Under the pieces are notes generated by a model. It did no database searches, was not told where the DNA came from, and saw only the letters and a program-made list of their open reading frames with translations. A stretch of DNA of 64,000 bases from Zeus faber (lineage: Eukaryota > Chordata > Actinopteri > Zeiformes > Zeidae): the NCBI GenBank assembly GCA_960531495.1, contig OY482855.1:186001-250000 (forward strand). The letters are read 5' to 3'. Made by a program: the position numbers and the translations under genes. Below are positions 10,032-58,422 of the stretch, piece by piece. The number at the start of each line of letters is the position of its first letter. Within the stretch, counting starts at the first letter, position 1.

Positions 10032-10285
10032 ACAACATGTATTTGTCGAGGTATGAGCATTTTCAGAACATTGGACGGTTTGCTGTCTAGCTGAATTAGA
10101 GAAACGAGGTATGAGCATTTTCAGAACATTGGACGGTTTGCTGTCTAGCTGAATTAGAGAAACACCAAACCATTGTCTCTTCAGAGGTGAATGATTCAGA
10201 ATGCTGCAGTACAGCATTGAAATTTAATTAATGTGATGAACTATTATGTGCTTCCTAAGTTTTTCTCTCAGATTTCTATGCCCAT
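10032..10285 (+). repeat. B' monomer with internal 58-bp tandem duplication (254 bp)
   Basis: The segment from GAGGTATGAG to GAGAAAC is present twice in direct tandem: 10048-10105 and 10106-10163. The second copy runs into ACCAAACC instead of the usual ACCGAACC. The same duplication and the same ACCAAACC mark occur at 39839, 48698 and 57557, so it happened once. This copy has the CTTCCTAAG/TATGCCC tail that normally leads into B2, but is followed directly by A at 10286, implying loss of one B2 here. Confidence 0.95.
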
Positions 10286-17251: not shown

Positions 17252-17699
17252 ACAACATGTATTTGTTGAGGTATGAGCATTTTCAGAACATTGGACGGTT
17301 TGCTGTCTAGCTGAATTAGAGAAACACCGAACCATTGTCTCTTCAGAGGTGAATGATTCAGAATGCTGCAGTACAGCATAGAAATTTAATTAATATGATG
17401 AACTATTATGTGCTTCCTAAGTTTTTCTCTCAGATTTATATGCCCATCTACCATGTATATCTGGAGTTATGATCATTTTCAGAACTTGTGACGATTTGCT
17501 GTCTAGCTGAATTAGAGAAACACCGAACCATTGTCTCTTCAGAGGTGAATGATTCAGAATGCTGCAGTACAGCATATAACTTTAATTAATATGAGGAACA
17601 ATTATGTGCTTCTTAAGTCTTTCTCAAAGACAGTTTAAATACAATGGTGAACTAGTATATGCTGCTAAAGTGTTGTTTGTCAAACAGTTTTAGGCCCAT
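17252..17699 (+). repeat. B1 plus B2/A chimeric monomer, copy 1
   Basis: A normal B1 (17252) is followed by a 252-bp hybrid at 17448. B2 sequence runs to about position 184 and then switches to the A monomer at about its position 141, giving ...TTCTCAAAGA then CAGTTTAAATACAATGG. Lengths add up (184 + 68 = 252). The breakpoint is near 17628-17631, with AGA shared by both parents. Private marks are ATATAACTTTAATTAATATG, GAGGAACAATTATG and ATGTATATCTGG. Confidence 0.94.
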
Positions 17700-29162: not shown

Positions 29163-29610
29163 ACAACATGTATTTGTTGAGGTCGGAGCATTTTCAGAAC
29201 ATTGGACGGTTTGCTGTCTAGCTGAATTAGAGAAACACCGAACCATTGTCTCTTCAGAGGTGAATGATTCAGAATGCTGCAGTACAGCATAGAAATTTAA
29301 TTAATATGATGAACTATTATGTGCTTCCTAAGTTTTTCTCTCAGATTTCTATGCCCATCTACCATGTATATCTGGAGTTATGATCATTTTCAGAACTTGT
29401 GACGATTTGCTGTCTAGCTGAATTAGAGAAACACCGAACCATTGTCTCTTCAGAGGTGAATGATTCAGAATGCTGCAGTACAGCATATAACTTGAATTAA
29501 TATGAGGAACAATTATGTGCTTCTTAAGTCTTTCTCAAAGACAGTTTAAATACAATGGTGAACTAGTATATGCTGCTAAAGTGTTGTTTGTCAAACAGTT
29601 TTAGGCCCAT
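29163..29610 (+). repeat. B1 plus B2/A chimeric monomer, copy 2
   Basis: Normal B1 at 29163 (with GAGGTCGGAGC), then the 252-bp chimera at 29359 with the breakpoint at about 29539-29542. The junction TCTCAAAG then ACAGTTTAAATAC, the ATATAAC mark and GAGGAACAATTATG are identical in form to 17448-17699. The two copies are 11,911 bp apart and clearly descend from one fusion event. Confidence 0.94.
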
Positions 29611-33474: not shown

Positions 33475-36400
33475 ACAACATGTATTTGTTGAGGTATGAG
33501 CATTTTCAGAACATTGGACGGTTTGCTGTCTAGCTGAATTAGAGAAACACCGAACCATTGTCTCTTCAGAGCTGAATGATTCAGAATGCTGCAGTACAGC
33601 ATAGAAATTTAATTAATATGATGAACTATTATGTGCTTCTTAAGTGTTTCTCATAGATTTCTAGGCCCATCTAACATGTATTTGTTGAGTTATGATCATT
33701 TTCATCATTGTGTGCACATGTGGGAACAAACGCATTTTCAGCCGATTTAAACGTCGAAAAGGGGAATTAGTTAAACGCTTCAGTCATTACTCTGTGTGAC
33801 AGTGTCAGACAGTTTAAATACAATGGTGAACTAGTATATGCTGCTAAAGTGTTGTTTGTCAACCAGTTTTAGGCCCATCTAACATGTATTTGTCGAGTTA
33901 TGATCATTTTCATCATTATGTGTACATGTGGGAAAAAACGCATTTTCAGCCGATTTAAACGTCGAAAAGGGGAATTGCTTAAACGCTTCAGTCATTACTC
34001 TGTGTGACAGTGTCAGACAGTGTAAATACAATGGTGAACTAGTATATGCTGCTAAAGTGTTGTTTGTCAACCAGTTTTAGACCCATCTAACATGTATTTG
34101 TCGAGTTATGATCATTTTCATCATTATGTGTACATGTGGGAAAAAACGCATTTTCAGCCGATTTAAACGTCGAAAAGGGGAATTGCTTAAACGCTTCAGT
34201 CATTACTCTGTGTGACAGTGTCAGACAGTTTAAATACAATGGTGAACTACTATATGCTGCTTAAGTGTTGTTTGTCAACCAGTTTTAGGCCCATCTAACA
34301 TGTATTTGTCGAGTTATGGTCATTTTCATCATTATGTGCACATGTGGGAAAAAACGCATGTTCAGCCGATTTAAACGTCGAAAAGGGGAATTGGTTAAAC
34401 GCTTCAGTCATTACTCTGTGTGACAGTGTCAGACAGTTTAAATACAATGGTGAACTAGTAGATGCTGCTTAAGTGTTGTTTGTAAAACAGTTTTAGGCCC
34501 ATCTAACATGTATTTGTCGAGTTATGGTCATTTTCATCATTATGTGCACATGTGGGAAAAAACGCATTTTCAGCCGATTTAAACGTCGAAAAGGGGAATT
34601 GCTTAAACGCTTCAGTCATTACTCTGTGTGACAGTGTCAGACAGTTTAAATACAATGGTGAACTAGTATATGCTGCTAAAGTGTTGTTTATCAAACAGTT
34701 TTAGGCCCATCTAACATGTATTTGTCGAGTTATGATCATTTTCATCATTATGTGCACATGTGGGAAAAAACGCATTTTCAGCCGATTTAAACGTCGAAAA
34801 GGGGAATTGGTTAAACGCTTCAGTCATTACTCTGTGTGACAGTGTCAGACAGTTTAAATACAATGGTAAACTAGTATATGCTGCTAAAGCGTTGTTTGTC
34901 AAACAGTTTTAGGCCCATACAACATGTATTTGTTGAGGTATGAGCATTTTCAGAACATTGGACGGTTTGCTGTCTAGCTGAATTAGAGAAACACCGAACC
35001 ATTGTCTCTTCAGAGGTGAATGATTCAGAATGCTGCAGTACAGCATAGAAATTTAATTAATATGATGAACTATTATGTGTTTCTAAAGTGTTTCTCATAG
35101 ATTTCTAGGCCCATCTAACATGTATTTGTTGAGTTATGATCATTTTCATCATTGTGTGCACATGTGGGAAAAAACGCATTTTCAGCCGATTTAAACGTCG
35201 AAAAGTGGAATTGGTTAAACGCATCAGTCATTACTCTGTGTGACAGTGTCAGACAGTTTAAATACAATGGTGAACTAGTATATGCTGCTAAAGTGTTGTT
35301 TGTCAAACAGTTTTAGGCCCATCTAACATGTATTTGTCGAGTTATGATCATTTTCATCATTATGTGCACATGTGGGAAAAAACGCATTTTCAGCCGATTT
35401 AAACGTCGAAAAGGGGAATTGGTTAAACGCTTCAGTCATTACTCTGTGTGACACTGTCAGACAGTTTAAATACAATGGTGAACTAGTATATGCTGCTAAA
35501 GCGTTGTTTGTCAAACAGTTTTAGGCCCATACAACATGTATTTGTTGAGGTATGAGCATTTTCAGAACATTGGACGGTTTGCTGTCTAGCTGAATTAGAG
35601 AAACACCGAACCATTGTCTCTTCAGAGGTGAATGATTCAGAATGCTGCAGTACAGCATAGAAATTTAATTAATATGATGAACTATTATGTGCTTCTTAAG
35701 TGTTTCTCACAGATTTCTAGGCCCATCGAACATGTATTTGTGGAGTTATGATCATTTTCATCATTGTGTGCACATGTGGGAAAAAACGCATTTTCAGCCG
35801 ATTTAAACGTCGAAAAGGGGAATTGGTTAAACGCTTTAGTCATTACTCTGTGTGACAGTGTCAGACAGTTTAAATACAATGGTGAACTAGTATATGCTGC
35901 TAAAGTGTTGTTTGTCAACCAGTTTTAGGCCCATCTAACATGTATTTGTCGAGTTATGATCATTTTCATCATTATGTGCACATGTGGGAAAAAACGCATG
36001 TTCAGCCGATTTAAACGTCGAAAAGGGGAATTGGTTAAACGCTTCAGTCATTACTCTGTGTGACAGTGTCAGACAGTTTAAATACAATGGTGAACTAGTA
36101 GATGCTGCTAAAGTGTTGTTTGTCAAACAGTTTTAGGCCCATCTAACATGTATTTGTTTAGTTATGGTCATTTTCATCATTATGTGCACACGTGGGAAAA
36201 AACGCATTTTCATCCGATTTAAACGTCGAAAAGGGGAATTGCTTAAACGCTTCAGTCATTACTCTGTGTGACAGTGTCAGACAGTTTAAATACAATGGTG
36301 AACTAGTATATGCTGCTAAAGTGTTGTTTATCAAACAGTTTTAGGCCCATCTAACATGTATTTGTCGAGTTATGATCATTTTCATCATTATGTGCACATG

Positions 36401-36754
36401 TGGGAAAAAACGCATTTTCAGCCGATTTAAACGTCGAAAAGGGGAATTGGTTAAACGCTTCAGTCATTACTCTGTGTGACAGTGTCAGACAGTTTAAATA
36501 CAATGGTAAACTAGTATATGCTGCTAAAGCGTTGTTTGTCAAACAGTTTTAGGCCCATACAACATGTATTTGTTGAGGTATGAGCATTTTCAGAACATTG
36601 CACGGTTTGCTGTCTAGCTGAATTAGAGAAACACCGAACCATTGTCTCTTCAGAGGTGAATGATTCAGAATGCTGCAGTACAGCATAGAAATTTAATTAA
36701 TATGATGAACTATTATGTGCTTCTTTAGTGTTTCTCACAGATTTCTAGGCCCAT
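33475..36754 (+). repeat. Domain II, right end adjoining the higher-order repeat
   Basis: Monomer starts: B 33475; A 33671, 33879, 34087, 34295, 34503, 34711; B 34919; A 35115, 35323; B 35531; A 35727, 35935, 36143, 36351; B 36559. The B at 36559 carries GAACATTGCACGG and is the left anchor of the 8,859-bp duplication: its sequence from about 36575 on is repeated from about 45434. Confidence 0.92.
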
Positions 36755-38931
36755 CTAACATGTATTTGTGGAGTTATGATCATTTTCATCATTGTGTGCA
36801 CATGTTGGAAAAAATGCATTTTCAGCCGATTTAAACGTCGAAAAGGGGAATTTTTTAAACGCTTTAGTCATTACTCTGTGTGACAGTGTCAGACAGTTTA
36901 AATACAATGGTGAACTAGTATATGCTGCTAAAGTGTTGTTTGTCAACCAGTTTTAGGCCCATCTAACATGTATTTGTCGAGTTATGATCATTTTCATCAT
37001 TATGTGTACATGTGGGAAAAAACGCATTTTCAGCCGATTTAAACGTCGAAAAGGGGAATTGCTTAAACGCTTCAGTCATTACTCTGTGTGACAGTGTCAG
37101 ACAGTTTAAATACAATGGTGAACTAGTATATGCTGCTAATGTGTTGTTTGTCAAACAGTTTTAGGCCCATGTAAAATGTATTTGTCGAGTTATGATCATT
37201 TTCATCATTGTGTGCACATATGGGAAAAAATGCATTTTCAGCCGATTTAAACGTCGAAAAGGGGAATTGGTTAAACGCTTTAATCATTACTCTGTGTGAC
37301 AGTGTCAGACAGTTTAAATACAATGGTGAACTAGTATATGCTGCTAAAGTGTTGTTTGTCAACCAGTTTTAGGCCCATCTAACATGTATTTGTTGAGTTA
37401 TGATCATTTTCATCATTATGTGTACATGTGGGAAAAAACGCATTTTCAGCCGATTTAAACGTCGAAAAGGGGAATTGCTTAAACGCTTCAGTCATTACTC
37501 TGTGTGACAGTGTCAGACAGTTTAAATACAATGGTGAACTACTATATGCTGCTAAAGTGTTGTTTGTCAACCAGTTTTAGGCCCATCTAACATGTATTTG
37601 TCGAGGTATGAGCATTTTCAGAACATTGGACGGTTTGCTGTCTAGCTGAATTAGAGAAACACCGAACCATTGTCTCTTCAGAGGTGAATGATTCAGAATG
37701 CTGCAGTACAGCATAGAACTTTAATTAATATGATGAACTATTATGTGCTTCTTAAGTGTTTCTCACAGATTTCTAGGCCCATCTAACATGTATTTGTGGA
37801 GTTATGATCATTTTCATCATTGTGTGCACATGTGGGAAAAAACGCATTTTCAGTCGATTTAAACGTCGAAAAGGGGAATTGCTTAAACGCTTCAGTCATT
37901 ACTCTGTGTGACAGTGTCAGACAGTTTAAATACAATGGTGAACTAGTATATGCTGCTAAAGCGTTGTTTGTCAAACAGTTTTAGGCCCATCTAACATTTA
38001 TTTGTCGAGTTATGATCATTTTCATCATTATGTGTACATGTGGGAAAAAACGCATTTTCAGCCGATTTAAACGTCGAAAAGGGGAATTGCTCAAACGCTT
38101 CAGTCATTACTCTGTGTGACAGTGTCAGACAGTTTAAATACAATGGTGAACTAGTATATGCTGCTAAAGCGTTGTTTGTCAAACAGTTTTAGGCCCATCT
38201 AACATTTATTTGTCGAGTTATGATCATTTTCATCATTATGTGTACATGTGGGAAAAAACGCATTTTCAGCCGATTTAAACGTCGAAAAGGGGAATTGCTT
38301 AAACGCTTCAGTCATTACTCTGTGTGACAGTGTCAGACAGTTTAAATACAATGGTGAACTAGTATATGCTGCTAAAGCGTTGTTAATAAAACAGTTTTTG
38401 GCCCATACAACATGTATTTGTTGAGGTATGAGCATTTTCAGAACATTGGACGGTTTGCTGTCTAGCTGAATTAGAGAAACACCGAACCATTGTCTCTTCA
38501 GAGGTGAATGATTCAGAATGCTGCAGTACAGCATAGAAATTTAATTAATATGATGAACTATTATGTGCTTCTTAAGTGTTTCTCACAGATTTCTAGGCCC
38601 ATCTAACATGTATTTGTGGAGTTATGATCATTTTCATCATTGTGTGCACATGTGGAAAAAAACGCATTTTCAGCCGATTTAAACGTCGAAAAGGGGAATT
38701 GGTTAAACGCTTTAGTCATTACTCTGTGTGACAGTGTCAGACAGTTTAAATACAATGGTGAACTAGTATATGCTGCTAAAGTGTTGTTTGTCAACCAGTT
38801 TTAGGCCCATCTAACATGTATTTGTCGAGTAATGATCATTTTCATCATTATGTGTACATGTGGGAAAAAACGCATTTTCAGCCGATTTAAACGTCGAAAA
38901 GGGGAATTGCTTAAACGCTTCAGTCATTACT

Positions 38932-38952
38932 CTGTCTGACAGTGTCAGACAG
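38932..38952. other. Perfect version of the A-monomer palindrome
   Basis: In unit 38811 the one mismatched base is changed, so the arms CTGTCTGACA and TGTCAGACAG are fully complementary around a central G. The higher-order copy has the same at 47791-47811. Confidence 0.75.
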
Positions 38953-39838
38953 TTTAAATACAATGGTGAACTAGTATATGCTGCTAATGTGTTGTTTGTC
39001 AAACAGTTTTAGGCCCATGTAAAATGTATTTGTCGAGTTATGATCATTTTCATCATTGTGTGCACATATGGGAAAAAATGCATTTTCAGCCGATTTAAAC
39101 GTCGAAAAGGGGAATTGGTTAAACGCTTTAATCATTACTCTGTGTGACAGTGTCAGACAGTTTAAATACAATGGTGAACTAGTATATGCTGCTAAAGTGT
39201 TGTTTGTCAACCAGTTTTAGGCCCATCTAACATGTATTTGTTGAGTTATGATCATTTTCATCATTATGTGTACATGTGGGAAAAAACGCATTTTCAGCCG
39301 ATTTAAACGTCGAAAAGGGGAATTGCTTAAACGCTTCAGTCATTACTCTGTGTGACAGTGTCAGACAGTTTAAATACAATGGTGAACTAGTATATGCTGC
39401 TAAAGCGTTGTTAATCAAACAGTTTTTGGCCCATACAACATGTATTTGTTGAGGTATGAGCATTTTCAGAACATTGGACGGTTTGCTGTCTAGCTGAATT
39501 AGAGAAACACCGAACCATTGTCTCTTCAGAGGTGAATGATTCAGAATGCTGCAGTACAGCATAGAAATTTAATTAATATGATGAACTATTATGTGCTTCT
39601 TAAGTGTTTCTCACAGATTTATAGGCCCATCTAACATGTATTTGTGGAGTTATGATCATTTTCATCATTGTGTGCACATGTGGGAAAAAACGCATTTTCA
39701 GCCGATTTAAACGTCGAAAATGGGAATTGGTTAAACGCTTCAGTCATTACTCTGTGTGACAGTGTCAGACAGTTTAAATACAATGGTGAACTAGTATATG
39801 CTGCTAAAGCGTTGTTTGTCAAACAGTTTTAGGCCCAT

Positions 39839-40092
39839 ACAACATGTATTTGTCGAGGTATGAGCATTTTCAGAACATTGGACGGTTTGCTGTCTAGCTG
39901 AATTAGAGAAACGAGGTATGAGCATTTTCAGAACATTGGACGGTTTGCTGTCTAGCTGAATTAGAGAAACACCAAACCATTGTCTCTTCAGAGGTGAATG
40001 ATTCAGAATGCTGCATTACAGCATTGAAATTTAATTAATATGATGAACTATTATGTGCTTCCTAAGTTTTTCTCTCAGATTTCTATGCCCAT
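39839..40092 (+). repeat. B' monomer with 58-bp duplication, higher-order copy 1
   Basis: Direct 58-bp repeats at 39855-39912 and 39913-39970, followed by ACCAAACC. The unit then reads CATTACAGCATTG and ends TATGCCC into the B2 at 40093, the context expected for a B1 of the B1-B2 dimer. Confidence 0.95.
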
Positions 40093-43000
40093 CTAACATG
40101 TATTTCTGGAGTTATGATCATTTTCAGAACTTGTGACGGTTTGCTGTCTAGCTGAATTAGAGAAACACCGAACCATTGTCTCTTCAGAGGTGAATGATTC
40201 AGAATGCTGCAGTACAGCATAGAAATTTAATTAATATGATGAACTATTATGTGCTTCTTAAGTGTTTCTCACAGATTTCTAGGCCCATCTAACATGTATT
40301 TGTGGAGTTATGATCATTTTCATCATTGTGTGCACATGTGGGAAAAAACGCATTTTCAGCCGATTTAAACGTCGAAAAGGGGAATTGCTTAAACGCTTCA
40401 GTCATTACTCTGTGTGACAGTGTCAGACAGTTTAAATACAATGGTGAACTAGTATATGCTGCTAAAGTGTTGTTTGTCAACCAGTTTTAGGCCCATCTAA
40501 CATGTATTTGTCGAGTTATGATCATTTTCATCATTGTGTGCACATATGGGAAAAAACACATTTTCAGCCGATTTAAACGTCGAAAAGGGGAATTGGTTAA
40601 ACGCTTCAGTCATTACTCTGTGTGACAGTGTCAGACAGTTTAAATACAATGGTGAACTAGTATATGCTGCTAAAGCGTTGTTTGTCAAACAGTTTTAGGC
40701 CCATACAACATGTATTTGTCGAGGTATGAGCATTTTCAGAACATTGGACGGTTTGCTGTCTAGCTGAATTAGAGAAACACCGAACCATTGTCTCTTCAGA
40801 GGTGAATGATTCAGAATGCTGCAGTACAGCATAGAAATTTAATTAATATGATGAACTATTATGTGCTTCTTAAGTGTTTCACACAGATTTCTAGGCCCAT
40901 CGAACATGTATTTGTGGAGTTATGATCATTTTCATCATTGTGTGCACATGTGGGAAAAAACACATTTTCAGCCGATTTAAACGTCGAAAAGGGGAATTGG
41001 TTAAACGCTTTAGTCATTACTCTGTGTGACAGTGTCAGACAGTTTAAATACAATGGTGAACTAGTATATGCTGCTAAAGTGTTGTTTGTCAACCAGTTTT
41101 AGGCCCATCTAACATGTATTTGTCGAGTTATGGTCATTTTCATCATTATGTGCACAGGTGGGAAAAAACGCATTTTCAGCCGATTTAAATGTCGAAAAGG
41201 GGATTTGCTTAAACGCATCAGTCATTACTCTGTGTGACAGTGTCAGACAGTTTAAATACAATGGTAAACTAGTATATGCTGCTAAAGCGTTGTTTGTCAA
41301 ACAGTTTTAGGCCCATACAACATGTATTTGTTGAGGTATGAGCATTTTCAGAACATTGGACGGTTTGCTGTCTAGCTGAATTAGAGAAACACCGAACCAT
41401 TGTCTCTTCAGAGGTGAATGATTCAGAATGCTGCAGTACAGCATAGAAATTTAATTAATATGATGAACTATTATGTGCTTCTTAAGTGTTTCTCATAGAT
41501 TTCTAGGCCCATCTAACATGTATTTGTTGAGTTATGATCATTTTCATCATTGTGTGCACATGTGGGAAAAAACGCATTTTCAGCCGATTTAAACGTCGAA
41601 AAGGGGAATTGGTTAAACGCTTCAGTCATTACTCTGTGTGACAGTGTCAGACAGTTTAAATACAATGGTGAACTAGTATATGCTGCTAAAGTGTTGTTTG
41701 TCAACCAGTTTTAGGCCCATCTAACATGTTTTTGTCGAGTTATGATCATTTTCATCATTATGTGTACATGTGGGAAAAAACGCATTTTCAGCCGATTTAA
41801 ACGTCGAAAAGGGGAATTGCTTAAACGCTTCAGTCATTACTCTGTGTGACAGTGTCAGACAGTTTAAATACAATGGTGAACTACTATATGCTGCTTAAGT
41901 GTTGTTTGTCAACCAGTTTTAGGCCCATCTAACATGTATTTGTCGAGTTATGATCATTTTCATCATTATGTGTACATGTGGGGAAAAAACGCATTTTCAG
42001 CCGATTTAAACGTCGAAAAGGGGAATTGGTTAAACGCTTCAGTCATTACTCTGTGTGACAGTGTCAGACAGTCTAAATACAATGGTGAACTAGTATATGC
42101 TGCTAAAGTGTTGTTTGTCAACCAGTTTTAGGCCCATCTAACATGTATTTGTCGAGTTATGATCATTTTCATCATTATGTGTACATGTGGGAAAAAACGC
42201 ATTTTCAGCCGATTTAAACGTCGAAAAGGGGAATTGCTTAAACGCTTCAGTCATTACTCTGTGTGACAGTGTCAGACAGTTTAAATACAATGGTGAACTA
42301 CTATATGCTGCTTAAGTGTTGTTTGTCAACCAGTTTTAGGCCCATCTAACATGTATTTGTCGAGTTATGGTCATTTTCATCATTATGTGCACATGTGGGA
42401 AAAAACGCATGTTCAGCCGATTTAAACGTCGAAAAGGGGAATTGGTTAAACGCTTCAGTCATTACTCTGTGTGACAGTGTCAGACAGTTTAAATACAATG
42501 GTGAACTAGTAGATGCTGCTAAAGTGTTGTTTGTCAAACAGTTTTAGGCCCATCTAACATGTATTTGTTTAGTTATGGTCATTTTCATCATTATGTGCAC
42601 ATGTGGGAAAAAACGCATTTTCATCCGATTTAAACGTCGAAAAGGGGAATTGCTTAAACGCTTCAGTCATTACTCTGTGTGACAGTGTCAGACAGTTTAA
42701 ATACAATGGTGAACTAGTATATGCTGCTAAAGTGTTGTTTATCAAACAGTTTTTGGCCCATCTAACATGTATTTGTCGAGTTATGATCATTTTCATCATT
42801 ATGTGCACATGTGGGAAAAAACGCATTTTCAGCCGATTTAAACGTCGAAAAGGGGAATTGGTTAAACGCTTCAGTCATTACTCTGTGTGACAGTGTCAGA
42901 CAGTTTAAATACAATGGTAAACTAGTATATGCTGCTAAAGCGTTGTTTGTCAAACAGTTTTAGGCCCATACAACATGTATTTGTTGAGGTATGAGCATTT

Positions 43001-43581
43001 TCAGAACATTGCACGGTTTGCGGTCTAGCTGAATTAGAGAAACACCGAACCATTGTCTCTTCAGAGGTGAATGATTCAGAATGCTGCAGTACAGCATAGA
43101 AATTTAATTAATATGATGAACTATTATGTGTTTCTTAAGTGTTTCTCATAGATTTCTAGGCCAATCTAACATGTATTTGTTGAGTTATGATCATTTTCAT
43201 CATTGTGTGCACATGTGGGAAAAAACGCATTTTCAGCCGATTTAAACGTCGAAAAGGGGAATTGGTTAAACGCATCAGTCATTACTCTGTGTGACAGTGT
43301 CAGACAGTTTTAATACAATGGTGAACTAGTATATGCTGCTAAAGTGTTGTTTGTCAACCAGTTTTAGGCCCATCTAACATGTATTTGTCGAGTTATGATC
43401 ATTTTCATCATTATGTGCACATGTGGGAAAAAACACATTTTCAGCCGATTTAAACGTCGAAAAGGGGAATTGCTTAAACGCTTCAGTCATAACTCTGTGT
43501 GACAGTGTCAGACAGTTTAAATACAATGGTGAACTAGTATATGCTGCTAAATCGTTGTTTGTCAAACAGTTTTAGGCCCAT

Positions 43582-43777
43582 ACAACATGTATTTGTCGAG
43601 GTATGATCATTTTCAGAACTTGTGACGGTTTGCTGTCTAGCTGAATTAGAGAAACACCGAACCATTGTCTCTTCAGAGGTGAATGATTCAGAATGCTGCA
43701 GTACAGCATAGAAATTTAATTAATATGATGAACTATTATGTGCTTCTTAAGTGTTTCTCACAGATTTCTAGGCCCAT
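43582..43777 (+). repeat. Hybrid B monomer in higher-order copy 1
   Basis: Same B1/B2 hybrid as 24672, at the +18,910 position of the shared segment 23436-24867/42346-43777. The preceding A ends AAATCGTTG in both places. Confidence 0.88.
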
Positions 43778-46700
43778 CTAACATGTATTTGTGGAGTTAT
43801 GATCATTTTCATCATTGTGTGCACATGTAGGAAAAAATGCATTTTCAGCCGATTTAAACGTCGAAAAGGGGAATTTTTTAAACGCTTTAGTCATTACTCT
43901 GTGTGACAGTGTCAGACAGTTTAAATACAATGGTGAACTAGTATATGCTGCTAAAGTGTTGTTTGTCAACCAGTTTTAGGCCCATCTAACATGTATTTGT
44001 CGAGTTATGATCATTTTCATCATTATGTGTACATGTGGGAAAAAACGCATTTTCAGCCGATTTAAACGTCGAAAAGGGGAATTGCTTAAACGCTTCAGTC
44101 ATTACTCTGTGTGACAGTGTCAGACAGTTTAAATACAATGGTGAACTAGTATATGCTGCTAAAGCGTTGTTTGTCAAACAGTTTTAGGCCCATACAACAT
44201 GTATTTGTCGAGGTATGAGCATTTTCAGAAAATTGGACGGTTTGCTGTCTAGCTGAATTAGAGAAACACCGAACCATTGTCCCTTCAGAGGTGAATGATT
44301 CAGAATGCTGCAGGACAGCATAGAAATTTTATTAATATGATGAACTATTATGTGCTTCCTAAGTTTTTCACTCAGATTTCTATGCCCATCTAACATGTAT
44401 TTCTGGAGTTATGATCATTTTCAGAACTTGTGACGGTTTGCTGTCTAGCTGAATTAGAGAAACACCGAACCATTGTCTCTTCAGTGGTGAATGATTCAGA
44501 ATGCTGCAGTACAGCATAGAAATTTAATTAATATGATGAACTATTATGTGCTTCATAAGTGTTTCTCACAGATTTCTAGGCCCATCTAACATGTATTTGT
44601 GGAGTTATGATCATTTTCATCATTGTGTGCACATGTGGGAAAAAACGCATTTTCAGCCGATTTAAACGTCGAAAAGGGGAATTGCTTAAACGCTTTAGTC
44701 ATTACTCTGTGTGACAGTGTCAGACAGTTTAAATACAATGGTGAACTAGTATATGCTGCTAAAGTGTTGTTTGTCAACCAGTTTTAGGCCCATCTAACAT
44801 GTATTTGTCGAGTTATGATCATTTTCATCATTATGTGTACATGTGGGAAAAAACGCATTTTCAGCCGATTTAAACGTCGAAAAGGGGAATTGCTTAAACG
44901 CTTCAGTCATTACTCTGTGTGACAGTGTCAGACAGTTTAAATACAATGGTGAACTAGTATATGCTGCTAATGTGTTGTTTGTCAAACAGTTTTAGGCCCA
45001 TGTAAAATGTATTTGTCGAGTTATGATCATTTTCATCATTGTGTGCACATATGGGAAAAAATGCATTTTCAGCCGATTTAAACGTCGAAAAGGGGAATTG
45101 GTTAAACGCTTTAATCATTACTCTGTGTGACAGTGTCAGACAGTTTAAATACAATGGTGAACTAGTATATGCTGCTAAAGTGTTGTTTGTCAACCAGTTT
45201 TAGGCCCATCTAACATGTATTTGTTGAGTTATGATCATTTTCATCATTATGTGTACATGTGGGAAAAAACGCATTTTCAGCCGATTTAAACGTCGAAAAG
45301 GGGAATTGCTTAAACGCTTCAGTCATTACTCTGTGTGACAGTGTCAGACAGTTTAAATACAATGGTGAACTACTATATGCTGCTAAAGTGTTGTTTGTCA
45401 ACCAGTTTTAGGCCCATCTAACATGTATTTGTCGAGGTATGAGCATTTTCAGAACATTGCACGGTTTGCTGTCTAGCTGAATTAGAGAAACACCGAACCA
45501 TTGTCTCTTCAGAGGTGAATGATTCAGAATGCTGCAGTACAGCATAGAAATTTAATTAATATGATGAACTATTATGTGCTTCTTTAGTGTTTCTCACAGA
45601 TTTCTAGGCCCATCTAACATGTATTTGTGGAGTTATGATCATTTTCATCATTGTGTGCACATGTTGGAAAAAATGCATTTTCAGCCGATTTAAACGTCGA
45701 AAAGGGGAATTTTTTAAACGCTTTAGTCATTACTCTGTGTGACAGTGTCAGACAGTTTAAATACAATGGTGAACTAGTATATGCTGCTAAAGTGTTGTTT
45801 GTCAACCAGTTTTAGGCCCATCTAACATGTATTTGTCGAGTTATGATCATTTTCATCATTATGTGTACATGTGGGAAAAAACGCATTTTCAGCCGATTTA
45901 AACGTCGAAAAGGGGAATTGCTTAAACGCTTCAGTCATTACTCTGTGTGACAGTGTCAGACAGTTTAAATACAATGGTGAACTAGTATATGCTGCTAATG
46001 TGTTGTTTGTCAAACAGTTTTAGGCCCATGTAAAATGTATTTGTCGAGTTATGATCATTTTCATCATTGTGTGCACATATGGGAAAAAATGCATTTTCAG
46101 CCGATTTAAACGTCGAAAAGGGGAATTGGTTAAACGCTTTAATCATTACTCTGTGTGACAGTGTCAGACAGTTTAAATACAATGGTGAACTAGTATATGC
46201 TGCTAAAGTGTTGTTTGTCAACCAGTTTTAGGCCCATCTAACATGTATTTGTTGAGTTATGATCATTTTCATCATTATGTGTACATGTGGGAAAAAACGC
46301 ATTTTCAGCCGATTTAAACGTCGAAAAGGGGAATTGCTTAAACGCTTCAGTCATTACTCTGTGTGACAGTGTCAGACAGTTTAAATACAATGGTGAACTA
46401 CTATATGCTGCTAAAGTGTTGTTTGTCAACCAGTTTTAGGCCCATCTAACATGTATTTGTCGAGGTATGAGCATTTTCAGAACATTGGACGGTTTGCTGT
46501 CTAGCTGAATTAGAGAAACACCGAACCATTGTCTCTTCAGAGGTGAATGATTCAGAATGCTGCAGTACAGCATAGAACTTTAATTAATATGATGAACTAT
46601 TATGTGCTTCTTAAGTGTTTCTCACAGATTTCTAGGCCCATCTAACATGTATTTGTGGAGTTATGATCATTTTCATCATTGTGTGCACATGTGGGAAAAA

Positions 46701-48697
46701 ACGCATTTTCAGTCGATTTAAACGTCGAAAAGGGGAATTGCTTAAACGCTTCAGTCATTACTCTGTGTGACAGTGTCAGACAGTTTAAATACAATGGTGA
46801 ACTAGTATATGCTGCTAAAGCGTTGTTTGTCAAACAGTTTTAGGCCCATCTAACATTTATTTGTCGAGTTATGATCATTTTCATCATTATGTGTACATGT
46901 GGGAAAAAACGCATTTTCAGCCGATTTAAACGTCGAAAAGGGGAATTGCTCAAACGCTTCAGTCATTACTCTGTGTGACAGTGTCAGACAGTTTAAATAC
47001 AATGGTGAACTAGTATATGCTGCTAAAGCGTTGTTTGTCAAACAGTTTTAGGCCCATCTAACATTTATTTGTCGAGTTATGATCATTTTCATCATTATGT
47101 GTACATGTGGGAAAAAACGCATTTTCAGCCGATTTAAACGTCGAAAAGGGGAATTGCTTAAACGCTTCAGTCATTACTCTGTGTGACAGTGTCAGACAGT
47201 TTAAATACAATGGTGAACTAGTATATGCTGCTAAAGCGTTGTTAATAAAACAGTTTTTGGCCCATACAACATGTATTTGTTGAGGTATGAGCATTTTCAG
47301 AACATTGGACGGTTTGCTGTCTAGCTGAATTAGAGAAACACCGAACCATTGTCTCTTCAGAGGTGAATGATTCAGAATGCTGCAGTACAGCATAGAAATT
47401 TAATTAATATGATGAACTATTATGTGCTTCTTAAGTGTTTCTCACAGATTTCTAGGCCCATCTAACATGTATTTGTGGAGTTATGATCATTTTCATCATT
47501 GTGTGCACATGTGGAAAAAAACGCATTTTCAGCCGATTTAAACGTCGAAAAGGGGAATTGGTTAAACGCTTTAGTCATTACTCTGTGTGACAGTGTCAGA
47601 CAGTTTAAATACAATGGTGAACTAGTATATGCTGCTAAAGTGTTGTTTGTCAACCAGTTTTAGGCCCATCTAACATGTATTTGTCGAGTAATGATCATTT
47701 TCATCATTATGTGTACATGTGGGAAAAAACGCATTTTCAGCCGATTTAAACGTCGAAAAGGGGAATTGCTTAAACGCTTCAGTCATTACTCTGTCTGACA
47801 GTGTCAGACAGTTTAAATACAATGGTGAACTAGTATATGCTGCTAATGTGTTGTTTGTCAAACAGTTTTAGGCCCATGTAAAATGTATTTGTCGAGTTAT
47901 GATCATTTTCATCATTGTGTGCACATATGGGAAAAAATGCATTTTCAGCCGATTTAAACGTCGAAAAGGGGAATTGGTTAAACGCTTTAATCATTACTCT
48001 GTGTGACAGTGTCAGACAGTTTAAATACAATGGTGAACTAGTATATGCTGCTAAAGTGTTGTTTGTCAACCAGTTTTAGGCCCATCTAACATGTATTTGT
48101 TGAGTTATGATCATTTTCATCATTATGTGTACATGTGGGAAAAAACGCATTTTCAGCCGATTTAAACGTCGAAAAGGGGAATTGCTTAAACGCTTCAGTC
48201 ATTACTCTGTGTGACAGTGTCAGACAGTTTAAATACAATGGTGAACTAGTATATGCTGCTAAAGCGTTGTTAATCAAACAGTTTTTGGCCCATACAACAT
48301 GTATTTGTTGAGGTATGAGCATTTTCAGAACATTGGACGGTTTGCTGTCTAGCTGAATTAGAGAAACACCGAACCATTGTCTCTTCAGAGGTGAATGATT
48401 CAGAATGCTGCAGTACAGCATAGAAATTTAATTAATATGATGAACTATTATGTGCTTCTTAAGTGTTTCTCACAGATTTATAGGCCCATCTAACATGTAT
48501 TTGTGGAGTTATGATCATTTTCATCATTGTGTGCACATGTGGGAAAAAACGCATTTTCAGCCGATTTAAACGTCGAAAATGGGAATTGGTTAAACGCTTC
48601 AGTCATTACTCTGTGTGACAGTGTCAGACAGTTTAAATACAATGGTGAACTAGTATATGCTGCTAAAGCGTTGTTTGTCAAACAGTTTTAGGCCCAT

Positions 48698-48951
48698 ACA
48701 ACATGTATTTGTCGAGGTATGAGCATTTTCAGAACATTGGACGGTTTGCTGTCTAGCTGAATTAGAGAAACGAGGTATGAGCATTTTCAGAACATTGGAC
48801 GGTTTGCTGTCTAGCTGAATTAGAGAAACACCAAACCATTGTCTCTTCAGAGGTGAATGATTCAGAATGCTGCATTACAGCATTGAAATTTAATTAATAT
48901 GATGAACTATTATGTGCTTCCTAAGTTTTTCTCTCAGATTTCTATGCCCAT
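48698..48951 (+). repeat. B' monomer with 58-bp duplication, higher-order copy 2
   Basis: Direct 58-bp repeats at 48714-48771 and 48772-48829, followed by ACCAAACC, 8,859 bp from the copy-1 unit and followed by B2 at 48952. Confidence 0.95.
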
Positions 48952-51900
48952 CTAACATGTATTTCTGGAGTTATGATCATTTTCAGAACTTGTGACGGTT
49001 TGCTGTCTAGCTGAATTAGAGAAACACCGAACCATTGTCTCTTCAGAGGTGAATGATTCAGAATGCTGCAGTACAGCATAGAAATTTAATTAATATGATG
49101 AACTATTATGTGCTTCTTAAGTGTTTCTCACAGATTTCTAGGCCCATCTAACATGTATTTGTGGAGTTATGATCATTTTCATCATTGTGTGCACATGTGG
49201 GAAAAAACGCATTTTCAGCCGATTTAAACGTCGAAAAGGGGAATTGCTTAAACGCTTCAGTCATTACTCTGTGTGACAGTGTCAGACAGTTTAAATACAA
49301 TGGTGAACTAGTATATGCTGCTAAAGTGTTGTTTGTCAACCAGTTTTAGGCCCATCTAACATGTATTTGTCGAGTTATGATCATTTTCATCATTGTGTGC
49401 ACATATGGGAAAAAATGCATTTTCAGCCGATTTAAACGTCGAAAAGGGGAATTGGTTAAACGCTTCAGTCATTACTCTGTGTGACAGTGTCAGACAGTTT
49501 AAATACAATGGTGAACTAGTATATGCTGCTAAAGCGTTGTTTGTCAAACAGTTTTAGGCCCATACAACATGTATTTGTCGAGGTATGAGCATTTTCAGAA
49601 CATTGGACGGTTTGCTGTCTAGCTGAATTAGAGAAACACCGAACCATTGTCTCTTCAGAGGTGAATGATTCAGAATGCTGCAGTACAGCATAGAAATTTA
49701 ATTAATATGATGAACTATTATGTGCTTCTTAAGTGTTTCACACAGATTTCTAGGCCCATCGAACATGTATTTGTGGAGTTATGATCATTTTCATCATTGT
49801 GTGCACATGTGGGAAAAAACACATTTTCAGCCGATTTAAACGTCGAAAAGGGGAATTGGTTAAACGCTTTAGTCATTACTCTGTGTGACAGTGTCAGACA
49901 GTTTAAATACAATGGTGAACTAGTATATGCTGCTAAAGTGTTGTTTGTCAACCAGTTTTAGGCCCATCTAACATGTATTTGTCGAGTTATGGTCATTTTC
50001 ATCATTATGTGCACAGGTGGGAAAAAACGCATTTTCAGCCGATTTAAATGTCGAAAAGGGGATTTGCTTAAACGCATCAGTCATTACTCTGTGTGACAGT
50101 GTCAGACAGTTTAAATACAATGGTAAACTAGTATATGCTGCTAAAGCGTTGTTTGTCAAACAGTTTTAGGCCCATACAACATGTATTTGTTGAGGTATGA
50201 GCATTTTCAGAACATTGGACGGTTTGCTGTCTAGCTGAATTAGAGAAACCCCGAACCATTGTCTCTTCAGAGGTGAATGATTCAGAATGCTGCAGTACAG
50301 CATAGAAATTTAATTAATATGATGAACTATTATGTGCTTCTTAAGTGTTTCTCATAGATTTCTAGGCCCATCTAACATGTATTTGTTGAGTTATGATCAT
50401 TTTCATCATTGTGTGCACATGTGGGAAAAAACGCATTTTCAGCCGATTTAAACGTCGAAAAGGGGAATTGGTTAAACGCTTCAGTCATTACTCTGTGTGA
50501 CAGTGTCAGACAGTTTAAATACAATGGTGAACTAGTATATGCTGCTAAAGTGTTGTTTGTCAACCAGTTTTAGGCCCATCTAACATGTTTTTGTCGAGGT
50601 ATGATCATTTTCATCATTATGTGTACATGTGGGAAAAAACGCATTTTCAGCCGATTTAAACGTCGAAAAGGGGAATTGCTTAAACGCTTCAGTCATTACT
50701 CTGTGTGACAGTGTCAGACAGTTTAAATACAATGGTGAACTACTATATGCTGCTTAAGTGTTGTTTGTCAACCAGTTTTAGGCCCATCTAACATGTATTT
50801 GTCGAGTTATGATCATTTTCATCATTATGTGTACATGTGGGGAAAAAACGCATTTTCAGCCGATTTAAACGTCGAAAAGGGGAATTGGTTAAACGCTTCA
50901 GTCATTACTCTGTGTGACAGTGTCAGACAGTCTAAATACAATGGTGAACTAGTATATGCTGCTAAAGTGTTGTTTGTCAACCAGTTTTAGGCCCATCTAA
51001 CATGTATTTGTCGAGTTATGATCATTTTCATCATTATGTGTACATGTGGGAAAAAACGCATTTTCAGCCGATTTAAACGTCGAAAAGGGGAATTGCTTAA
51101 ACGCTTCAGTCATTACTCTGTGTGACAGTGTCAGACAGTTTAAATACAATGGTGAACTACTATATGCTGCTTAAGTGTTGTTTGTCAACCAGTTTTAGGC
51201 CCATCTAACATGTATTTGTCGAGTTATGGTCATTTTCATCATTATGTGCACATGTGGGAAAAAACGCATGTTCAGCCGATTTAAACGTCGAAAAGGGGAA
51301 TTGGTTAAACGCTTCAGTCATTACTCTGTGTGACAGTGTCAGACAGTTTAAATACAATGGTGAACTAGTAGATGCTGCTAAAGTGTTGTTTGTCAAACAG
51401 TTTTAGGCCCATCTAACATGTATTTGTTTAGTTATGGTCATTTTCATCATTATGTGCACATGTGGGAAAAAACGCATTTTCATCCGATTTAAACGTCGAA
51501 AAGGGGAATTGCTTAAACGCTTCAGTCATTACTCTGTGTGACAGTGTCAGACAGTTTAAATACAATGGTGAACTAGTATATGCTGCTAAAGTGTTGTTTA
51601 TCAAACAGTTTTAGGCCCATCTAACATGTATTTGTCGAGTTATGATCATTTTCATCATTATGTGCACATGTGGGAAAAAACGCATTTTCAGCCGATTTAA
51701 ACGTCGAAAAGGGGAATTGGTTAAACGCTTCAGTCATTACTCTGTGTGACAGTGTCAGACAGTTTAAATACAATGGTAAACTAGTATATGCTGCTAAAGC
51801 GTTGTTTGTCAAACAGTTTTAGGCCCATACAACATGTATTTGTTGAGGTATGAGCATTTTCAGAACATTGCACGGTTTGCGGTCTAGCTGAATTAGAGAA

Positions 51901-52440
51901 ACACCGAACCATTGTCTCTTCAGAGGTGAATGATTCAGAATGCTGCAGTACAGCATAGAAATTTAATTAATATGATGAACTATTATGTGTTTCTTAAGTG
52001 TTTCTCATAGATTTCTAGGCCAATCTAACATGTATTTGTTGAGTTATGATCATTTTCATCATTGTGTGCACATGTGGGAAAAAACGCATTTTCAGCCGAT
52101 TTAAACGTCGAAAAGGGGAATTGGTTAAACGCATCAGTCATTACTCTGTGTGACAGTGTCAGACAGTTTAAATACAATGGTGAACTAGTATATGCTGCTA
52201 AAGTGTTGTTTGTCAACCAGTTTTAGGCCCATCTAACATGTATTTGTCGAGTTATGATCATTTTCATCATTATGTGCACATGTGGGAAAAAACACATTTT
52301 CAGCCGATTTAAACGTCGAAAAGGGGAATTGCTTAAACGCTTCAGTCATAACTCTGTGTGACAGTGTCAGACAGTTTAAATACAATGGTGAACTAGTATA
52401 TGCTGCTAAATCGTTGTTTGTCAAACAGTTTTAGGCCCAT

Positions 52441-52636
52441 ACAACATGTATTTGTCGAGGTATGATCATTTTCAGAACTTGTGACGGTTTGCTGTCTAGC
52501 TGAATTAGAGAAACACCGAACCATTGTCTCTTCAGAGGTGAATGATTCAGAATGCTGCAGTACAGCATAGAAATTTAATTAATATGATGAACTATTATGT
52601 GCTTCTTAAGTGTTTCTCACAGATTTCTAGGCCCAT
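52441..52636 (+). repeat. Hybrid B monomer in higher-order copy 2
   Basis: Copy-2 counterpart of 43582 at +8,859, with the same ACAACATG start, B2-type body and preceding AAATCGTTG. Confidence 0.88.
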
Positions 52637-53444
52637 CTAACATGTATTTGTGGAGTTATGATCATTTTCATCATTGTGTGCACATGTAGGAAAAAATGCA
52701 TTTTCAGCCGATTTAAACGTCGAAAAGGGGAATTTTTTAAACGCTTTAGTCATTACTCTGTGTGACAGTGTCAGACAGTTTAAATACAATGGTGAACTAG
52801 TATATGCTGCTAAAGTGTTGTTTGTCAACCAGTTTTAGGCCCATCTAACATGTATTTGTCGAGTTATGATCATTTTCATCATTATGTGTACATGTGGGAA
52901 AAAACGCATTTTCAGCCGATTTAAACGTCGAAAAGGGGAATTGCTTAAACGCTTCAGTCATTACTCTGTGTGACAGTGTCAGACAGTTTAAATACAATGG
53001 TGAACTAGTATATGCTGCTAAAGCGTTGTTTGTCAAACAGTTTTAGGCCCATACAACATGTATTTGTCGAGGTATGAGCATTTTCAGAAAATTGGACGGT
53101 TTGCTGTCTAGCTGAATTAGAGAAACACCGAACCATTGTCCCTTCAGAGGTGAATGATTCAGAATGCTGCAGGACAGCATAGAAATTTTATTAATATGAT
53201 GAACTATTATGTGCTTCCTAAGTTTTTCACTCAGATTTCTATGCCCATCTAACATGTATTTCTGGAGTTATGATCATTTTCAGAACTTGTGACGGTTTGC
53301 TGTCTAGCTGAATTAGAGAAACACCGAACCATTGTCTCTTCAGTGGTGAATGATTCAGAATGCTGCAGTACAGCATAGAAATTTAATTAATATGATGAAC
53401 TATTATGTGCTTCATAAGTGTTTCTCACAGATTTCTAGGCCCAT

Positions 53445-55500
53445 CTAACATGTATTTGTGGAGTTATGATCATTTTCATCATTGTGTGCACATGTGGGAA
53501 AAAACGCATTTTCAGCCGATTTAAACGTCGAAAAGGGGAATTGCTTAAACGCTTTAGTCATTACTCTGTGTGACAGTGTCAGACAGTTTAAATACAATGG
53601 TGAACTAGTATATGCTGCTAAAGTGTTGTTTGTCAACCAGTTTTAGGCCCATCTAACATGTATTTGTCGAGTTATGATCATTTTCATCATTATGTGTACA
53701 TGTGGGAAAAAACGCATTTTCAGCCGATTTAAACGTCGAAAAGGGGAATTGCTTAAACGCTTCAGTCATTACTCTGTGTGACAGTGTCAGACAGTTTAAA
53801 TACAATGGTGAACTAGTATATGCTGCTAATGTGTTGTTTGTCAAACAGTTTTAGGCCCATGTAAAATGTATTTGTCGAGTTATGATCATTTTCATCATTG
53901 TGTGCACATATGGGAAAAAATGCATTTTCAGCCGATTTAAACGTCGAAAAGGGGAATTGGTTAAACGCTTTAATCATTACTCTGTGTGACAGTGTCAGAC
54001 AGTTTAAATACAATGGTGAACTAGTATATGCTGCTAAAGTGTTGTTTGTCAACCAGTTTTAGGCCCATCTAACATGTATTTGTTGAGTTATGATCATTTT
54101 CATCATTATGTGTACATGTGGGAAAAAACGCATTTTCAGCCGATTTAAACGTCGAAAAGGGGAATTGCTTAAACGCTTCAGTCATTACTCTGTGTGACAG
54201 TGTCAGACAGTTTAAATACAATGGTGAACTACTATATGCTGCTAAAGTGTTGTTTGTCAACCAGTTTTAGGCCCATCTAACATGTATTTGTCGAGGTATG
54301 AGCATTTTCAGAACATTGGACGGTTTGCTGTCTAGCTGAATTAGAGAAACACCGAACCATTGTCTCTTCAGAGGTGAATGATTCAGAATGCTGCAGTACA
54401 GCATTGAACTTTAATTAATATGATGAACTATTATGTGCTTCTTAAGTGTTTCTCACAGATTTCTAGGCCCATCTAACATGTATTTGTGGAGTTATGATCA
54501 TTTTCATCATTGTGTGCACATGTGGGAAAAAACGCATTTTCAGCCGATTTAAACGTCGAAAAGGGGAATTGCTTAAACGCTTTAGTCATTACTCTGTGTG
54601 ACAGTGTCAGACAGTTTAAATACAATGGTGAACTAGTATATGCTGCTAAAGTGTTGTTTGTCAACCAGTTTTAGGCCCATCTAACATGTATTTGTCGAGT
54701 TATGATCATTTTCATCATTATGTGTACATGTGGGAAAAAACGCATTTTCAGCCGATTTAAACGTCGAAAAGGGGAATTGCTTAAACGCTTCAGTCATTAC
54801 TCTGTGTGACAGTGTCAGACAGTTTAAATACAATGGTGAACTAGTATATGCTGCTAATGTGTTGTTTGTCAAACAGTTTTAGGCCCATGTAAAATGTATT
54901 TGTCGAGTTATGATCATTTTCATCATTGTGTGCACATATGGGAAAAAATGCATTTTCAGCCGATTTAAACGTCGAAAAGGGGAATTGGTTAAACGCTTTA
55001 ATCATTACTCTGTGTGACAGTGTCAGACAGTTTAAATACAATGGTGAACTAGTATATGCTGCTAAAGTGTTGTTTGTCAACCAGTTTTAGGCCCATCTAA
55101 CATGTATTTGTTGAGTTATGATCATTTTCATCATTATGTGTACATGTGGGAAAAAACGCATTTTCAGCCGATTTAAACGTCGAAAAGGGGAATTGCTTAA
55201 ACGCTTCAGTCATTACTCTGTGTGACAGTGTCAGACAGTTTAAATACAATGGTGAACTACTATATGCTGCTAAAGTGTTGTTTGTCAACCAGTTTTAGGC
55301 CCATCTAACATGTATTTGTCGAGGTATGAGCATTTTCAGAACATTGGACGGTTTGCTGTCTAGCTGAATTAGAGAAACACCGAACCATTGTCTCTTCAGA
55401 GGTGAATGATTCAGAATGCTGCAGTACAGCATTGAACTTTAATTAATATGATGAACTATTATGTGCTTCTTAAGTGTTTCTCACAGATTTCTAGGCCCAT
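53445..55500 (+). repeat. Tandem pair of 1,028-bp AAAAB pentamers
   Basis: 53445-54472 and 54473-55500 are adjacent copies of a four-A, one-B cassette. They share the GTAAAATG-subtype third unit, the ACTACTATATG fourth unit and GCATTGAACTTTAATTAA in the B. Related pentamers lie at 36755, 44586 and 45614, so the 1,028-bp cassette is a recurring exchange unit inside the larger repeat. Confidence 0.9.
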
Positions 55501-58422
55501 CTAACATGTATTTGTGGAGTTATGATCATTTTCATCATTGTGTGCACATGTTGGAAAAAACGCATTTTCAGCCGATTTAAACGTCGAAAAGGGGAATTGC
55601 TTAAACGCTTCAGTCATTACTCTGTGTGACAGTGTCAGACAGTTTAAATACAATGGTGAACTAGTATATGCTGCTAAAGCGTTGTTTGTCAAACAGTTTT
55701 AGGCCCATCTAACATTTATTTGTCGAGTTATGATCATTTTCATCATTATGTGTACATGTGGGAAAAAACGCATTTTCAGCCGATTTAAACGTCGAAAAGG
55801 GGAATTGCTTAAACGCTTCAGTCATTACTCTGTGTGACAGTGTCAGACAGTTTAAATACAATGGTGAACTAGTATATGCTGCTAAAGCGTTGTTTGTCAA
55901 CCAGTTTTAGGCCCATCTAACATTTATTTGTCGAGTTATGATCATTTTCATCATTATGTGTACATGTGGGAAAAAACGCATTTTCAGCCGATTTAAACGT
56001 CGAAAAGGGGAATTGCTTAAACGCTTCAGTCATTACTCTGTGTGACAGTGTCAGACAGTTTAAATACAATGGTGAACTAGTATATGCTGCTAATGTGTTG
56101 TTTGTCAAACAGTTTTAGGCCCATGTAAAATGTATTTGTCGAGTTATGATCATTTTCATCATTGTGTGCACATATGGGAAAAAATGCATTTTCAGCCGAT
56201 TTAAACATCGAAAAGGGGAATTGGTTAAACGCTTTAATCATTACTCTGTGTGACAGTGTCAGACAGTTTAAATACAATGGTGAACTAGTATATGCTGCTA
56301 AAGTGTTGTTTGTCAACCAGTTTTAGGCCCATCTAACATGTATTTGTTGAGTTATGATCATTTTCATCATTATGTGTACATGTGGGAAAAAACGCATTTT
56401 CAGCCGATTTAAACGTCGAAAAGGGGAATTGCTTAAACGCTTCAGTCATTACTCTGTGTGAGAGTGTCAGACAGTTTAAATACAATGGTGAACTACTATA
56501 TGCTGCTAAAGTGTTGTTTGTCAACCAGTTTTAGGCCCATCTAACATGTATTTGTCGAGGTATGAGCATTTTCAGAACATTGGACGGTTTGCTGTCTAGC
56601 TGAATTAGAGAAACACCGAACCATTGTCTCTTCAGAGGTGAATGATTCAGAATGCTGCAGTACAGCATAGAACTTTAATTAATATGATGAACTATTTTGT
56701 GCTTCTTAAGTGTTTCTCACAGATTTCTAGGCCCATCTAACATGTATTTGTGGAGTTATGATCATTTTCATCATTGTGTGCACATGTGGGAAAAAACGCA
56801 TTTTCAGCCGATTTAAACGTCGAAAAGGGGAATTGCTTAAACGCTTCAGTCATTACTCTGTGTGACAGTGTCAGACAGTTTAAATACAATGGTGAACTAG
56901 TATATGCTGCTAAAGCGTTGTTTGTCAAACAGTTTTAGGCCCATCTAACATTTATTTGTCGAGTTATGATCATTTTCATCATTATGTGTACATGTGGGAA
57001 AAAACGCATTTTCAGCCGATTTAAACGTCGAAAAGGGGAATTGCTTAAACGCTTCAGTCATTACTCTGTGTGACAGTGTCAGACAGTTTAAATACAATGG
57101 TGAACTAGTATATGCTGCTAAAGCGTTGTTAATCAAACAGTTTTTGGCCCATACAACATGTATTTGTTGAGGTATGAGCATTTTCAGAACATTGGACGGT
57201 TTGCTGTCTAGCTGAATTAGAGAAACACCGAACCATTGTCTCTTCAGAGGTGAATGATTCAGAATGCTGCAGTACAGCATAGAAATTTAATTAATATGAT
57301 GAACTATTATGTGCTTCTTAAGTGTTTCTCACAGATTTCTAGGCCCATCTAACATGTATTTGTGGAGTTATGATCATTTTCATCATTGTGTGCACATGTG
57401 GGAAAAAACGCATTTTCAGCCGATTTAAACGTCGAAAATGGGAATTGGTTAAACGCTTCAGTCATTACTCTGTGTGACAGTGTCAGACAGTTTAAATACA
57501 ATGGTGAACTAGTATATGCTGCTAAAGCGTTGTTTGTCAAACAGTTTTAGGCCCATACAACATGTATTTGTCGAGGTATGAGCATTTTCAGAACATTGGA
57601 CGGTTTGCTGTCTAGCTGAATTAGAGAAACGAGGTATGAGCATTTTCAGAACATTGGACGGTTTGCTGTCTAGCTGAATTAGAGAAACACCAAACCATTG
57701 TCTCTTCAGAGGTGAATGATTCAGAATGCTGCATTACAGCATTGAAATTTAATTAATATGATGAACTATTATGTGCTTCCTAAGTTTTTCTCTCAGATTT
57801 CTATGCCCATCTAACATGTATTTCTGGAGTTATGATCATTTTCAGAAATTGTGACGGTTTGCTGTCTAGCTGAATTCGAGAAACACCGAACCATTGTCTC
57901 TTCAGAGGTGAATGATTCAGAATGCTGCAGTACAGCATAGAAATTTAATTAATATGATGAACTATTATGTGCTTCTTAAGTGTTTCCCACAGATTTCTAG
58001 GCCGATCTAACATGTATTTGTGGAGTTATGATCATTTTCATCATTGTGTGCACATGTGGGAAAAAACGCATTTTCAGCCGATTTAAACGTCGAAAAGGGG
58101 AATTGCTTAAACGCTTCAGTCATTACTCTGTGTGACAGTGTCAGACAGTTTAAATACAATGGTGAACTAGTATATGCTGCTAAAGTGTTGTTTGTCAACC
58201 AGTTTTAGGCCCATCTAACATGTATTTGTCGAGTTATGATCATTTTCATCATTGTGTGCACATATGGGAAAAAATGCATTTTCAGCCGATTTAAACGTCG
58301 AAAAGGCGAATTGGTTAAACGCTTTAATCATTACTCTGTGTGACAGTGTCAGACAGTTTAAATACAATGGTGAACTAGTATATGCTGCTAAAGTGTTGTT
58401 TGTCAACCAGTTTTAGGCCCAT
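54473..58422 (+). repeat. Diverged, remodelled third copy of the higher-order repeat
   Basis: Monomer starts: A 54473, 54681, 54889, 55097; B 55305; A 55501, 55709, 55917, 56125, 56333; B 56541; A 56737, 56945; B 57153; A 57349; B' 57557; B2 57811; A 58007, 58215. Registration at +8,859 to copy 2 holds for 55501-56124 and again for 57153-58422; in between the monomer order differs. Its first pentamer resembles 53445-54472 rather than 45614-46641. Confidence 0.88.
57557..57810 (+). repeat. B' monomer with 58-bp duplication, third higher-order copy
   Basis: Direct 58-bp repeats at 57573-57630 and 57631-57688, followed by ACCAAACC and the B2 at 57811. The +8,859 spacing to 48698 shows that the higher-order frame is restored here after the rearranged stretch at about 56.1-57.15 kb. 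Confidence 0.95.

Follow-up and report, generated by a model that had tools for sequence, protein, structure and literature searches.

Higher-order repeats (HORs) of alpha satellite are typically built of about 4-40 monomers according to a review (PMC9549924), with a monomer length of about 171 bp (PMC11062924). Longer units have been published. A 52mer alpha-satellite HOR on human chromosome 21 is described as two copies that are 0.2% apart, against 17.7% between the monomers inside a copy (PMC12385485), a 59mer alpha-satellite HOR on orangutan chromosome 13 is reported in eight copies 0.1% apart (PMC11276891), and a 58mer is reported in the orangutan Y (PMC12428378). Tandem repeats have been modelled by unequal crossover (Smith 1976; Waye and Willard 1986; both via PMC9859433), and for the megabase spread of new HORs in human centromeres the authors of PMC11062924 infer mechanisms beyond simple unequal crossover. 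Here, a block of 43 satellite monomers and 8,859 bp that occurs twice in tandem in Zeus faber was analyzed. The window, which is the whole stretch of 64,000 nucleotides that was studied, covers positions 186001-250000 of contig OY482855.1 (C11 in the following) of assembly GCA_960531495.1. Plain coordinates below are those of the window, and all of its features are given on the forward strand. The block is very probably a recent two-copy tandem duplication of 43 monomers, as judged from the sequence, and would have been produced by one homologous, in-phase unequal exchange.

Monomer decomposition resolved the window (1-64000) as a single satellite in one orientation, with 313 monomer segments (221 of class A and 92 of class B) and partial monomers of 18 bp and 63 bp at the window ends. 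Class A monomers were exactly 208 bp long in 207 of the 220 full copies and class B monomers exactly 196 bp in 84 of 91. The first ~40 bases are common to A and B, and their 3' ends are related. The original prediction had described two adjacent copies with a shared monomer order and few differences, and this was confirmed. Alignment of 36755-45613 with 45614-54472 gave 8,849 identical positions out of 8,859 (99.89%), with 10 substitutions and no indel. Each copy consists of 43 monomers of two subfamilies, as predicted, with 31 A and 12 B, and the order AAAABAAABAAAABAbBAABAABAAAAAAABAABAABBAAAAB (b denotes a 254-bp variant, B') and the monomer lengths are the same in both. The decomposition also reproduced the predicted total of exactly 8,859 bp, made up of 30 A of 208 bp, one A of 209 bp, 11 B of 196 bp and one B' of 254 bp. 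B' (39832-40085) is a B monomer with a 58-bp internal tandem duplication. As predicted, it recurs at an offset of 8,859 bp (48691), as does the 209-bp A (41922-42130, again at 50781); further B' monomers were found at 57550, which like that at 48691 shows no differences, and at 10025 (two differences). Monomers of the same type inside the unit differ on average by 3.9% (A) and 3.8% (B), and the copies by 0.07-0.11%. Since the monomers within a class are this close, the unit is recognised by its order and a few odd monomers. The longest in-register run of monomers with at most two edits each was 42, compared to at most four in 100 shuffles of the monomer order. The likeness extends past both ends of the aligned copies, as 35506-47299 aligns to 44363-56158 at 99.33%.

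The junction between the copies was characterized by comparison of three tracts spaced 8,859 bp apart, a left parental tract R1 (35524-38396), a recombinant tract R12 (44383-47255; R1 + 8,859) and a right parental tract R2 (53242-56114; R1 + 17,718). Informative sites were counted without gaps, because MAFFT on 4.4-kb stretches placed a spurious one-monomer gap at 35626. On the left side (35524-36574 in R1) R12 agreed with R2 and not with R1 at 44 of 44 informative sites, and on the right side (36601-38388) it agreed with R1 and not with R2 at 18 of 18. Informative sites of any other kind were not observed in this comparison, so that R12 is a hybrid tract with a single switch. With the automatic tract limit used for all periods, the counts were 34 and 13, and R1=R2 sites were again absent. 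The switch falls between the last R12=R2 site at 36574 and the first R12=R1 site at 36601, which leaves an exchange interval of 26 bp at 36575-36600 in R1, inside the B monomer 36552-36747. The corresponding interval is 45434-45459 in R12, where copy 1 meets copy 2, and 54293-54318 in R2. Within the B monomer it spans positions 24-49, and all of its 26 bases are identical. The B monomer that holds the junction (45411-45606) is exactly 196 bp long and combines the B at 36552 with the B at 54270; the monomer phase has been kept. A "hybrid B" had been listed in the original prediction. No separate class of this kind was found, and the hybrid at 45411-45606 is maybe what was meant.

A tract that follows R2 up to the switch and R1 beyond it is what an exchange between R2 on one chromatid and R1 on a second one should produce. 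Out-of-register pairing would have involved two B monomers at a distance of 8,859 bp, lying in tracts of like monomer order, and a crossover inside the 26 bp that are identical between them would leave a full-length hybrid B at the new junction and a gain of one 8,859-bp copy. The partners could have been sister chromatids or homologues (one haplotype was read), or an equivalent break-induced copy may have had the same outcome. To the left of the switch, the differences between R1 and R2 number 11, 2, 5, 15 and 7 per monomer, which is no closer than average A or B pairs. Four of the ten positions at which the aligned copies differ (45460, 45546, 45550 and 45585) already distinguished the parental tracts. 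Since these predate the duplication, a phase set by the crossover is preferable, with copy 1 at 36601-45459 and copy 2 at 45460-54318. Each comprises 43 monomers, and in this phase the copies differ at 6 of 8,859 positions. These few later substitutions all fall within 40557-43311, and two of them are adjacent.

The stretch of C11 that was read for comparison (C11:126001-390000, 264 kb) contains tracts at least 99.2% identical with many different periods. A list of large duplications was prepared from the 400 commonest offsets, of which the best 30 were kept, and the five with a tract of at least one period were tested for a switch. A signature like that of the 8,859-bp block was observed in two others. 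Period 5,103 showed a clean switch with 2 + 9 informative sites and one R1=R2 site, and 3 differences in 5,103 positions between the copies. Period 3,310 showed a clean switch with 7 + 8 informative sites, likewise with one R1=R2 site, and 2 differences in 3,310. The divergence between copies was 0.068% (8,859), 0.059% (5,103) and 0.060% (3,310) for the three clean cases, and 0.62% (3,085) and 0.71% (2,269) for an older pair. The array appears to grow by exchanges of varied length, with 8,859 bp as the largest found and not as a preferred period.

Part of a third, older copy of the block follows copy 2. It begins with a stretch of 1.8 kb (54319-56103; 54293-56103 is 99.1% identical to 36575-38385), continues with a rearranged patch in which AAAAABAAB replaces AAABAAAAB, and returns in the same register for 1.5 kb (56798-58326; 98.95% to copy 1). 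Its B' is identical to those of copies 1 and 2. Because the third copy keeps to the register of 8,859 bp, this spacing already existed before the recent exchange, and at least one earlier event with this spacing appears to have taken place in the array and to have been partly overwritten later.

Several points weigh against a single clean exchange as the explanation. The register of the third copy implies that the whole history would need more than one exchange. Period 3,085 had no clean switch, with 5 misplaced among 29 sites and 7 R1=R2 sites, and period 2,269 had 5 informative sites, too few to place a switch. Furthermore, the nearly equal divergence of 0.059-0.068% in the three clean cases could reflect a floor set by consensus errors and not age.

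Such a floor would also be in line with an assembly duplication, in which a single genomic copy would have been doubled when the assembler ran through an 8.9-kb loop two times or fused two haplotypes. The copies differ by just 0.07%, their interior is long satellite, and three duplications in one array share almost the same small divergence. However, a graph that merged the parental tracts should switch within their longest exact match, which is 860 bp (36855-37714) and lies to the right of the switch, 255 bp away, with 8 R1-type sites in between (36601-36854). The actual switch is in the 26-bp match outside it. The clean monomer lengths of the window also disfavour misassembly from noisy reads. 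An assembly duplication was considered unlikely for these reasons, and we infer that the duplication arose in the animal.

A further explanation is a true HOR, with the two copies lying at the margin of a homogenised 43mer array of many copies or surviving from one. The partial third copy in the same register, with its identical B', and an HOR-like ratio of divergence between copies to divergence inside the unit both fit this. Against it, the full block was found in exactly two copies in C11:126001-390000, which reaches 140 kb past the window end, and the next best piece was 3,582 bp at 97.7%. Genome-wide searches with test pieces of 658 bp and 1,028 bp gave the two copies as the top-scoring places, and the close relatives on C7 and C12 were not collinear with the unit; both statements hold for the best candidates. 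A remnant of this kind is thus quite improbable. As for the predicted very large HOR, the ordered unit of 43 monomers stands, with copies far closer to each other than the monomers inside, and what falls away, for the 264 kb of C11 read, is a homogenised array of many copies. The term "43mer HOR, two copies" would be acceptable in the loose usage of the cited authors but not in the strict sense of a homogenised array, and the block cautions that two copies side by side do not by themselves amount to a higher-order repeat. The prediction had also called units of this length uncommon, which is fair given the typical ~4-40 monomers, but the size is no record given the published 52mer and 59mer.

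Alpha satellite had also been brought into the original prediction. Ordinary alpha satellite was excluded by the monomer lengths, 208 and 196 bp compared to ~171 bp, and by the lack of a CENP-B box. The CENP-B box motif occurs in part of alpha-satellite monomers; in the window it gave no match on either strand at up to one mismatch. At two mismatches, 5 matches were found, compared to 41 in one sequence simulated with equal dinucleotide composition. A single A monomer and a single B monomer, folded as single strands, did no better than shuffled sequences (z of 0.27 and 0.29). A 43-mer kept as a functional unit by selection, or by protein binding of that period, is hardly conceivable, as no points in its favour were found, the neighbouring duplications have unrelated periods (5,103, 3,310, 3,085 and 2,269), a CENP-B box was not found and monomer folding was at shuffle level. 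Selection on the block would not be required by the proposed exchange.

A long interspersed nuclear element (LINE) is present in the same array in two copies, C11:259278-264710 and C11:284400-289837, which are 99.45% identical over 5,433 bp. Both carry an intact frame of 1,267 amino acids with endonuclease and reverse transcriptase domains (Pfam PF03372 and PF00078). Both enter the satellite after position 204 of an A monomer and exit, after a poly-A, at A position 10. The monomers that flank them show 8/204, 5/199 and 18/208 differences, roughly at or above the level between randomly paired monomers, and with flanks that divergent the two LINEs appear to be separate insertions at one site. 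A genome search with the LINE 3' end gave 40 scored matches, from which 39 new ends were read and the junctions counted by alignment. Of these 39 junctions, 37 led into satellite at monomer position 10 and one at position 14. The single junction outside the satellite, at C2:2711507-2711687, led into other sequence. By these junctions the LINE is apparently specific for this satellite. Target-specific insertion is described for LINEs of the Tx1 group (PMC3747384), and no satellite-targeting LINE turned up in full-text searches of the literature, as judged at the level of the listed papers.

It could be imagined that the LINE drives satellite turnover, in that its endonuclease would nick at a fixed monomer site, position 10 at the 3' junction, and the block duplications would begin with off-register repair. 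Two of the duplications have their switch interval at position 10 or within ~40 bp of it, that of period 8,859 at positions 24-49 of B and that of period 3,310 beginning a few bases into the monomer and including position 10. For period 5,103 the switch is in the final third of an A monomer. Chance could easily account for the fit, three events being too few as a test, and such a role of the LINE is very doubtful.

Other irregular features were observed in the window. Near-identical tracts (99.3-99.4%) at offsets of 4,052, 7,583 and 11,635 occupy 1-13374, and in the larger stretch those at 11,635 and 4,052 begin to the left of the window. An odd monomer of 252 bp occurs at 17441-17692 and 29352-29603, with one edit between its two copies. 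It follows B almost to its end and then continues with the last 65 bp of A, and resembles the product of an out-of-phase exchange.

On C11 the satellite extends from near 161 kb to the end of the stretch read at 390 kb, is interrupted by two insertions and continues beyond 390 kb. The assembly comprises 803.5 Mb in 153 contigs. TTAGGG arrays are present, and the first listed ones are at the start of C1. At least fourteen contigs are longer than 20 Mb, and the fourteen considered here comprise twelve of 27-40 Mb and two of 53 and 66 Mb. Matches to the satellite or to the satellite-borne LINE on these 14 contigs were all within 3 Mb of one end, and among the matches listed none of the 14 had them at both ends. 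From its position near one contig end, the array of C11 is probably the centromere or pericentromere of an acrocentric chromosome. On 10 of 10 contigs (C3, C4, C7, C8, C10, C11, C12, C13, C19 and C21; one match each), the satellite closest to the chromosome end was oriented from that end into the arm. A uniform array orientation throughout the genome was rejected, as C20 holds both orientations. Satellite flanking LINEs further inward on C4, C8 and C10 has the opposite orientation. The 658-bp stretch with B' (39624-40281) recurs with very few differences at C7:35972709 and C12:10581. This points to exchange between the arrays of different chromosomes or to a recent common origin. Sixteen satellite strings, searched on both strands against the full-text literature, gave no match, the literature on satellites by monomer length offered nothing fitting, and exact satellite patterns had no occurrence in viral contigs and prokaryote genome contigs.

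The process proposed here is already known, and the block is a new example of it, an ordinary large satellite duplication. It is of use as a worked case, in that the parental tracts and the recombinant adjoin and the exchange could be mapped to 26 bp, and in that the exchange used a match of 26 bp and lay outside the longest exact one (860 bp). Given several dated two-copy duplications per array, accurate assemblies could serve to measure the length, identity and place of exchanges, a matter relevant to the origin of HORs.

In comparison with the human 52mer as described, the block is likewise a very long unit in exactly two near-identical copies whose inner monomers are far more divergent; it differs in its 208/196-bp monomers, 3.8-3.9% apart within a class, in place of 171-bp alpha satellite. 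With the orangutan 59mer it shares a unit of more than 40 monomers and a very small divergence between copies (0.1% in the 59mer), whereas the 59mer is reported in eight copies and belongs to primate alpha satellite. As in the account of HOR emergence in human centromeres, new satellite structures are quick to appear in single lineages, but unlike the megabase spread treated there, one duplication suffices here. The block fits with the unequal crossover model as outlined in the citing source, in which in-phase exchange adds or removes blocks of monomers and leaves hybrid monomers. There is no difference in principle; what this locus adds is that both parental tracts and the recombinant persist side by side.

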